A stretch of DNA of 64,000 nt from Saccharopolyspora erythraea NRRL 2338 (GTDB lineage Bacteria; Actinomycetota; Actinomycetes; Mycobacteriales; Pseudonocardiaceae), in NCBI RefSeq assembly GCF_000062885.1, contig NC_009142.1, positions 6,933,584 through 6,997,583 of the forward strand, given 5' to 3'. The notes under the pieces were generated by a model. That model was not told the origin of the DNA. It did not search any database and worked only from the letters and a program-made list of their open reading frames with translations. Below, one piece after another: positions 26,530-27,969 of this stretch. The stretch's first letter is position 1; each line of letters starts with the position of its first letter. Position numbers and translations under genes: made by a program.

Positions 26530-26629
26530 GTCTACCTCCCAGCCGTGATTGCCCGCGGCTAGCGGCCCGGTCCGTCGCGCATGCGACCGCCGCGGCTACC
26601 GGCGAGCCCCTCCGCCGCCCATTCTTCCG

Positions 26630-26680
26630 CCTAGGCGCCGGGCGCCTGCGGCGGGGTTTCACCTGGCCGGGTGATCTAGG
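26630..26680. other. compact double-hairpin intergenic structure
   Basis: Outer CCTA/TAGG ends (26630-26633, 26677-26680) enclose two perfect hairpins. AGGCGC-CGG-GCGCCT is at 26633-26647, and TCACC/GGTGA surrounds TGGCCG at 26659-26674. It lies in the divergent 439-bp gap between the ABC ATPase and cysteine dioxygenase genes, where no terminator is expected. Function unknown. Confidence 0.4.
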
Positions 26681-26757
26681 TCGCACAGGCGCCCAGCATC
26701 CGGAACACCGGCCGCAGCGGTGGCCACGGCCCTGCGGCGAGTGCCAGGATCGGTGGC

Positions 26758-26829
26758 GTGTCCGGTTCGTTGCTCACACGTGATCGCGTGGTCGACCTGC
26801 TGATGGTCGTCACCTCCGCGTGTCGCTGA
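26758..26829 (+). CDS. cysteine-containing leader peptide of the cdo operon (23 aa)
   Basis: A 23-codon frame starts at a GTG eight bases after AGGA and ends TCC GCG TGT CGC TGA. The peptide starts MSGSLLTRDRVVDLL and ends TSACR. This fits the pattern of actinomycete sulfur-gene leader peptides, which end in a basic/HVDL-like segment and then Ser-Ala-Cys-Arg/Cys. It lies 139 bp upstream of cysteine dioxygenase. A ribosome stalling at the single Cys codon when Cys-tRNA is scarce would alter the downstream hairpin. The frame is seen directly; the regulatory role is inference from the family pattern. Confidence 0.65.
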   Translation: MSGSLLTRDRVVDLLMVVTSACR

Positions 26830-26830
26830 C

Positions 26831-26868
26831 GCGTTCGTCCTGCTGACCCCTCTTCCGGGTCCCAACGC
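26831..26868 (+). promoter_or_regulatory. hairpin after the leader peptide (attenuator candidate)
   Basis: Immediately after the leader stop, GCGTT (26831-26835) pairs with AACGC (26864-26868), and GACCC (26845-26849) pairs with GGGTC (26857-26861). A ribosome paused at the Cys codon would cover the 5' arm. No U-run follows, so it could act on Rho access or translation rather than as an intrinsic terminator. Confidence 0.4.
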
Positions 26869-26968
26869 GCGGCACAGCGAATCAAGCACACCCTCGCCAC
26901 CCACATCGCGACGGGTGCGTCGTGTCGCGCCGAATTCCACCGGTCTGACACGAAATCTGGAGCCATCC

Positions 26969-27562
26969 ATGACCTCCGTGCACCCGCACATCTCCCAGTA
27001 CACCCCGACCGAAGAACTGCCCGAGCCCGGCCAGGTGCAGTTGCACCCCGAACTCGACGTACCTCTGCTGCGCGACCTGGTCCCAGCCGACCGTCTGCTG
27101 TGGACACCCCATGAGCTGCGCGATCTGACCAGCACCGTCACTTCCGAGCTCACCGGGCTGCTGTTGGACGTCGTGCGCGTCGACGACGAGGAGCGCTGGT
27201 GGGCGCGGCTCGGCCTCACCGCGGGCGTCGAGCTGTGGCTGCTGTCGTGGGCGCCGGGTCAGGGCACCAAGCCGCACGACCACGGCGGCGCCTCCGGCTC
27301 GTTCGCGGTGCTGTTCGGCGAACTGCGCGAGGACTACGTCTACCCAGGCGGACCCGTGCGCACCGCCCGGCACGACATCGGCTCGGCGATCGGCTTCGGC
27401 AGCGGGCGCGCGCACCAGGTGCGCAACGTCAGCTCGGTCAACGCGGCCAGCGTGCACGCGTACTCGCCACCCCTGCTGCCGGTGCGGCACTACGCCGACC
27501 TGGCCGACGTACCGCCGGTCCCGCCGCAGCGGCACCCGTTCCAGCCGGAGGTCATCCGATGA
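26969..27562 (+). CDS. cysteine dioxygenase
   Basis: Encodes 197 aa of the CDO cupin family. The iron ligands are His103 and His105 in PHDHGGASGSFAVLFGELRE and His149 in SGRAHQVRN. CDO oxidises L-cysteine to cysteine sulfinate, the first step of cysteine breakdown. GGAG lies eight bases before the ATG at 26969; in-frame codons upstream are part of the leader. Its stop overlaps the ATG of the rhodanese gene (ATGA), so the two are coupled. The Cys-containing leader peptide upstream suggests control by cysteine supply. Confidence 0.93.
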   Translation: MTSVHPHISQYTPTEELPEPGQVQLHPELDVPLLRDLVPADRLLWTPHELRDLTSTVTSELTGLLLDVVRVDDEERWWARLGLTAGVELWLLSWAPGQGTKPHDHGGASGSFAVLFGELREDYVYPGGPVRTARHDIGSAIGFGSGRAHQVRNVSSVNAASVHAYSPPLLPVRHYADLADVPPVPPQRHPFQPEVIR

Positions 27563-27969
27563 GCGCGCCCACCACCGGCCCCTACGGCGTCGAGCACCTG
27601 CTGGCGGAGTCCCGCACCGAGCTGGAGCGGGTGAGCCCGCGGGAGGCGGCGGAGCTGCAACGGCAGGGCGGGCTGATCATCGACATCCGCCCGGACGCCA
27701 ACCGCCTCGCGGAGGGTGAGATCCCCGGGGCGCTCACCGTCGAGCGGATCGTCCTGGAGTGGCGGCTCGATCCGTCCAGCCCGCACCGGCTGGCCGGGCT
27801 GCGCCCGCACCAACCGGTCGTGCTGGTCTGCAACGAGGGCTACGCCTCCAGCCTCGCCGCCGCCCAGGCCCGCGAGCTCGGCCTGACCCGCGCGACCGAC
27901 CTCGACGGCGGCTTCCGCGCCTGGAAGGCCGCCGGCCTTCCCGTCACCACCGCCACCGCAGCGGCCTGA
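27559..27969 (+). CDS. rhodanese-like sulfurtransferase
   Basis: Encodes 136 aa, a single rhodanese domain. CH2A-like LIIDIRPDANRLAEGEIPGA is followed by the active-site loop VVLVCNEGYASS, with the catalytic cysteine at residue 91. It probably moves sulfane sulfur, for instance from thiosulfate or persulfides, during cysteine turnover. Start and stop codons overlap with cysteine dioxygenase, and the pair is common in actinobacteria. The acceptor is not known. Confidence 0.92.
   Translation: MSAPTTGPYGVEHLLAESRTELERVSPREAAELQRQGGLIIDIRPDANRLAEGEIPGALTVERIVLEWRLDPSSPHRLAGLRPHQPVVLVCNEGYASSLAAAQARELGLTRATDLDGGFRAWKAAGLPVTTATAAA

Follow-up and report, generated by a model that had tools for sequence, protein, structure and literature searches.

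Does the short cysteine-bearing reading frame ahead of a cysteine dioxygenase gene of Saccharopolyspora erythraea NRRL 2338 control the breakdown of cysteine, and if so, in which sense? The frame lies in a 64,000-nt stretch (NC_009142.1, positions 6,933,584 to 6,997,583; hereafter the window) of a genome that consists of one contig of 8,212,805 bases; the features described below are all on the plus strand and are numbered from the first base of the window. The frame (VSGSLLTRDRVVDLLMVVTSACR-stop) runs for 23 codons from a GTG start to a TGA stop (26758–26829), with its sole Cys codon, TGT at 26821–26823, two codons ahead of the stop, and the stop is 139 nt from the start ATG (26969) of cdo, the cysteine dioxygenase gene (26969–27562; Pfam CDO_I, 58 bits against a cut-off of 23), which has its Shine-Dalgarno (SD) sequence, GGAG, at 26959–26962. 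The cdo stop is overlapped (ATGA) by the start of a gene for a rhodanese-domain protein (27559–27969; Pfam Rhodanese, 58.3 bits), and a rhodanese gene lies downstream of cdo in all 51 loci checked, among them that of the window. The frame with one Cys codon, the 139-bp leader and the cysteine dioxygenase–rhodanese operon of the original prediction were thus all found. The 23-codon leader very probably adjusts cysteine breakdown to cysteine supply, because it is kept in nearly every close relative with the same rare Cys codon. With moderate confidence, we take it to be a cis-acting, probably leaderless Cys-codon ORF that would adjust cdo–rhodanese expression through the position of the ribosome at one fixed UGU.

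Conservation of the leader among close relatives

Searches for CDO homologues gave a match in 51 of 60 relatives, a close match in at least 188 of 297 evenly drawn genomes of the family, and eight loci in a named collection. We inspected the region upstream of the gene at 119 close homologous loci (26 from the 60 relatives, six from the named collection, and 27 and 60 from the family set, the 60 hand-picked to spread over genera) and found the leader upstream of cdo in 118, the sole exception being L027; the core pattern recovered 114 of these leaders, a slightly wider pattern two, and inspection of the reading frames the last two. The loci outnumber the genomes, as at least two pairs (L056/L077 and L057/L073) look like the same genome, having identical folding values; L060 was omitted as a duplicate of L020. 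The set of 115 leaders used for most tallies holds 111 distinct 120-nt leader regions and 100 distinct cores, and L177 and L178, which were filtered out of it, were read separately and both have TGT. Outside the 119, the core pattern found no leader at six further loci, namely two Catenulispora bins and four weaker matches outside the family (L030–L033). At 34 more distant CDO loci, the slightly wider pattern found none; another scan of 34 more distant loci showed a leader in L054, L055 and L118 only, the last being one that the wider pattern had failed to pick up.

By these counts, the leader is conserved beyond chance, and it marks a cdo–rhodanese operon that occurs in over 20 of the family's genera. 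That the frame is a chance ORF is hardly credible, being refuted by a conservation in which nearly every close locus has the leader as against 0/34 distant loci by the slightly wider pattern. Comparison of upstream cdo regions in relatives had been put forward as a check on the original prediction, and it found the TGT codon and the frame kept rather than lost, so that the proposed Cys leader peptide in the style of actinomycete sulfur genes is borne out as a conserved Cys-codon ORF.

The core of the cdo leaders reads RDRx(V/I)DLxxVxSxxC. Part of the constancy of Cys, at its fixed spacing, and of Asp was built in by the search pattern and by a filter, respectively; the 115 leaders encode the kept Arg, Leu and Val positions with several codons each, so it is the peptide itself that is conserved. 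From 1 to 49 residues follow the Cys, and the fixed point is therefore the Cys codon, not the stop. Leaders end in SACR, SACH, AACC, SCGC and other ways, and SACR, the ending named in the original prediction, is ruled out as a conserved unit because both the residue after Cys and the length of the tail vary. In L019 and L175 the frame lacks an early stop and continues into the start of cdo, which suggests that the leader–cdo arrangement differs there. Conservation at the peptide level would suit a leader peptide acting in trans as a small protein, but its fixed place before cdo, its variable C-terminal tail, the two loci in which the frame runs into cdo and the overlap of an RNA stem with the end of the frame make such a role very improbable.

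The leader start and its UGU codon

The leader had also been credited with a ribosome site of its own. The AGGA concerned (26746–26749) sits within TGCCAGGAT (26742–26750), 7 nt upstream of the leader start codon, and a 4-base SD-like word stands at that place in just 14 of the 115 leaders. All 115 have a hexamer xAxxxT ending 6 or 7 nt ahead of the start codon, a count that is not independent, as the hexamer helped to choose among start codons; the two bases before it played no part in that choice and read T in 114 and G in 115 leaders, and within the hexamer the first base is C in 102 and the fifth A in 109. On the plus strand of the window, a TG-extended element at this 6–7 nt spacing precedes only 3 of 1533 ATG or GTG codons. 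A scan for the sigma-70 consensus in 26600–27100 found none, the −10 element there having no TTGACA partner. An extended −10 promoter element is the better reading of the supposed ribosome site, and the leader ORF is therefore probably leaderless. Sulfite reductase (sir) leaders, which were found in 29 of 30 loci (L209–L237), have the extended −10 element in 26 of the 29. The element is ruled out as a general rule for leaders, since it accompanies 1 of 13 matches in the host genome to NF042934, the NCBIfam cis_reg_atten family of a “putative leader peptide”, and that one is a sir leader.

All 118 cdo leaders (the set of 115 plus the three read separately) have TGT as their Cys codon; TGT, unlike Cys itself, was not demanded by the leader search, and it accounts for 12 of the 155 Cys codons across 42 window frames that look like genes. 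Two codons before the conserved Cys, the commonest residue is again Cys, there encoded by TGC in 54 leaders and by TGT in six. Among the best 30 NF042934 loci, the matching Cys is TGT in all 28 with a recognizable core (L201 and L202, where it could not be recognized, were left out), and the other Cys codons in these frames are TGC (52) and TGT (14); in the host genome, 12 of 13 NF042934 matches have TGT as their last Cys codon. The matching Cys of the sir leaders is TGC in 22 of 29 and TGT in seven, by which UGU is ruled out as a rule for the whole leader family. Wobble decoding is one idea for why UGU is used. Its constancy in GC-rich genomes offers a simple, testable handle on cysteine sensing by such leaders.

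This constancy also bears on whether the nascent peptide could be the sensor, with RDRxVDLLxVxS in the exit tunnel, much as in TnaC, stalling the ribosome at Cys when free cysteine or some other ligand is sensed, and not through a lack of charged tRNA. Residues well ahead of the Cys are conserved with varied codons, where a hungry-codon attenuator would need the Cys codon only. Yet UGU is invariant even though UGC also encodes Cys, a sign that decoding or RNA matters and not the peptide alone, and we consider nascent-peptide arrest unlikely.

RNA structure and the sense of control

Outside the Saccharopolyspora-like clade to which the window belongs, a stretch about 6–16 nt past the Cys codon forms pairs with an arm that precedes the ribosome site of cdo; the leader-end arm is often ACGCG(A/G)CG, read as TRR, and its partner CG(T/C)CGCGT. 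At Cys+14, the pair is A-U in 32, G-C in 29 and G-U in 12 of 77 loci, with both sides varying, a tally that alone is no test because the partner was picked as the best duplex. Over 106 loci (identical loci and those with a Cys-to-start gap below 60 nt were left out of the pairing and masking analyses), downstream pairing of the leader-end arm has a median z of −1.71, with 47 loci below −2, versus −0.11 and 11 loci for a control window. In an alignment of the leader stem from 22 sequences of three genera, 97.9% of cells are paired, 12 cells are two-sided and the covariation score is 0.181 versus 0.102, each of these three values being matched by none of 500 shuffles; the remaining two of the five measures, pairs with two-sided change (72/500) and further pair types (316/500), are not above shuffles, and the RNAalifold covariation term on this alignment is −0.04.

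Masking the leader end lowers the probability that the cdo SD is unpaired from 0.259 (leader end free) to 0.120 in 22 sequences of groups g8, g21 and g22 (shuffle difference 0.014, sd 0.022, maximum 0.084) and from 0.307 to 0.226 in 55 others (shuffle maximum 0.054), among which the g21 loci L022, L128 and L129 are counted; in both sets the effect exceeds all 30 shuffle means. By genus, with inferred labels for L056–L059 and L063, the effect is positive in 19 of 22, negative in three, and above the shuffle mean of 0.014 in 15. By locus (n = 115), 31 shift by more than 0.1 in this direction, six in the opposite direction and 78 in neither. The proposed sequestor of the SD is 90.3% paired (matched by 2/500 shuffles) and without covariation (370/500). 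The same masking leaves the 29 sir loci unchanged (0.276 versus 0.280; shuffles were run for the cdo sets only). The sequences are related, so these tests overstate independence, and the folding takes no account of the order of transcription or of ribosomes that follow. For the sister genera, the folding predicts that a free leader end would make the cdo ribosome site freer, giving more expression when cysteine is plentiful.

Scarce Cys-tRNA would leave the ribosome waiting at the UGU, where it would cover the RNA just 3′ of that codon; in the sister genera, the covered leader end would free the 3′ arm to form structure around the cdo ribosome site, keeping cdo low. With plentiful cysteine, the ribosome would finish and leave, the leader-end stem would form, the ribosome site would be freer and the breakdown enzymes would be made. 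The original prediction had raised the puzzle that a leader for cysteine breakdown would have to work in the opposite sense to leaders for acquisition, with more cysteine giving more expression. In the sister genera, the predicted wiring, a free leader end with an open ribosome site, meets this puzzle; the window's own clade shows no direction in folding, and for the window species we infer it from the sister genera only, with the control point itself likely to be the same.

In the window, a single predicted fold pairs TCGCTG-A-CGCG (26823–26833) with CGCG (26866–26869) and CAGCGA (26875–26880), forming a stem that spans 26823–26880 and encloses an inner hairpin of GACCC (26845–26849) and GGGTC (26857–26861) with a 7-nt loop. 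The hairpin that had been placed right after the stop therefore exists, but it begins at the 16th base past it, and covariation is not above shuffles in this clade. The 162-nt RNA of 26824–26985 folds better than its shuffles (z −2.54), and its minimum-energy fold keeps the inner hairpin and not the outer stem. Pairing of the leader-end arm in the Saccharopolyspora-like clade is near z 0, not above shuffles. A conserved post-leader element, CGCGCGGCACAGCGAATC (26866–26883; alignment A1, RNAalifold), is also able to pair with leader codons 3–9, and this alternative helix has 96.9% of its cells paired in the window's clade, but with no measure above shuffles and no covariation. Masking the leader end in 29 Saccharopolyspora-like sequences gives an SD unpaired probability of 0.195, versus 0.217 when it is free (shuffle difference 0.010, sd 0.019, maximum 0.050). 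The folding thus does not decide the sense of control in the window's own clade. No intrinsic terminator (a GC-rich hairpin with a T run) was found in 26600–27100, and an Rfam scan of the leader gave one match at E ≤ 10, whose 16.5 bits fall short of the gathering score of 60.

The same leader might instead act in the ordinary sense, with cysteine shortage stalling the ribosome and raising cdo–rhodanese as is expected of sulfur assimilation leaders; the enzymes would then serve to salvage sulfur, as sulfite from thiols, or to keep redox balance, and not to dispose of excess cysteine. The post-leader element of the Saccharopolyspora-like clade, for which both the leader start and sequence further 3′ are possible pairing partners, could wire the leader either way, and weaker relatives of the leader elsewhere in this genome stand before sulfite reductase, luciferase-like monooxygenase, FMN reductase and transport genes. 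Against this, SD accessibility shifts the opposite way in 19 of the 22 genera, and the CDO_I assignment, with its predicted substrate, points to cysteine oxidation; we regard the ordinary sense as doubtful.

Relation to other leaders

The window peptide has no match to the NF042934 model at E ≤ 10 (curated cut-off, 27 bits), nor have three other cdo leaders that were tried; it is also absent from the 21 matches at E ≤ 10 that the host genome gave among 150 candidates scored of 296, of which three pass the family cut-off. It is nonetheless a short ORF upstream of sulfur/cysteine genes (CDO_I, Rhodanese), and its C-terminal part holds the gapless V-D-L-x2-V-x4-C core. By spacing and setting, we take the cdo leader to be a divergent relative of the NF042934 kind that would work like one; we stop short of counting it as a member because it does not reach the model's cut-off, and it is thus an element that the current family model overlooks. 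It differs from that family in having RDRxV where R-x-H-V is usual, often xxTRR after the Cys, and cysteine breakdown as its target.

Mycobacteria reportedly carry polycysteine leaderless short ORFs, with Cys codons, before sulfur operons (work attributed to Canestrari, 2020), which we take to be what NF042936 and NF042933 describe. The cdo leaders resemble them as short, probably leaderless ORFs, but mostly have one or two Cys (the window leader has one, and no run of three or more occurs in the cdo leaders found by the core pattern), a catabolic target and a predicted opposite sense. The TnaC leader of the Escherichia coli tryptophanase operon controls a catabolic operon of the amino acid that is sensed; the logic is the same, a leader for a breakdown operon, but the tail of the cdo leader varies in length, with no sign of stalling at the stop codon. 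Actinobacterial cys/cbs leader peptides (PMC1262725) likewise bear Cys, and no conserved terminator hairpin was found for them, but their Cys codons form runs close to the stop and the genes that follow are biosynthetic. The uORFC-8-2 attenuator of cysS in Rhodobacterales (PMC8632094) shares a Cys-codon uORF with downstream stems, but there UGC dominates, the Cys codons are in tandem, a terminator with a U run follows, and the target is an aminoacyl-tRNA synthetase. No cdo leader was found in the titles or abstract openings of the literature matches listed.

The host genome's NF042934 matches, many of which are weak, stand upstream of genes that have Pfam matches to sulfite reductase, SDF symporter, TauE, a second CDO, luciferase-like monooxygenase, DUF4395, FMN reductase and two solute-binding proteins (nine frames, chosen by base composition, were scanned, and L041 was called luciferase-like by eye alone). 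It is conceivable, at somewhat less than an even chance, that one genome wires such leaders oppositely, so that plentiful cysteine would lower acquisition genes and, through the anti-sequestor stem, raise cdo–rhodanese, one ribosome-at-Cys sensor setting both supply and disposal. If so, amino-acid breakdown and supply would be set by the same ribosome-at-a-codon sensor, its sign reversed by RNA wiring.

Leader-like frames with TGT were also seen at L036, L039 and L043 of the host genome, L036 and L043 lying ∼140 bases apart on opposite strands. The second CDO gene of the host genome, which lies outside the window, has an NF042934-type leader of 24.4 bits, below the 27-bit cut-off. In two genomes of the window's genus (L054 and L055), the second CDO gene has the leader GHIDLRRVASALCPSR, with TGT and a stop 115–117 nt before the match, and two cdo genes of one genome thus carry such leaders. 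In the class relative G500, which belongs to another family, a CDO homologue (L118) has a classical leader, RVHMDLVRYAGCVC, with TGT, ∼220 nt upstream, and in two further genomes of that genus (G479:C15 and G425:C19) a CDO match is preceded, at a distance of a few hundred bases, by an NF042934 match.
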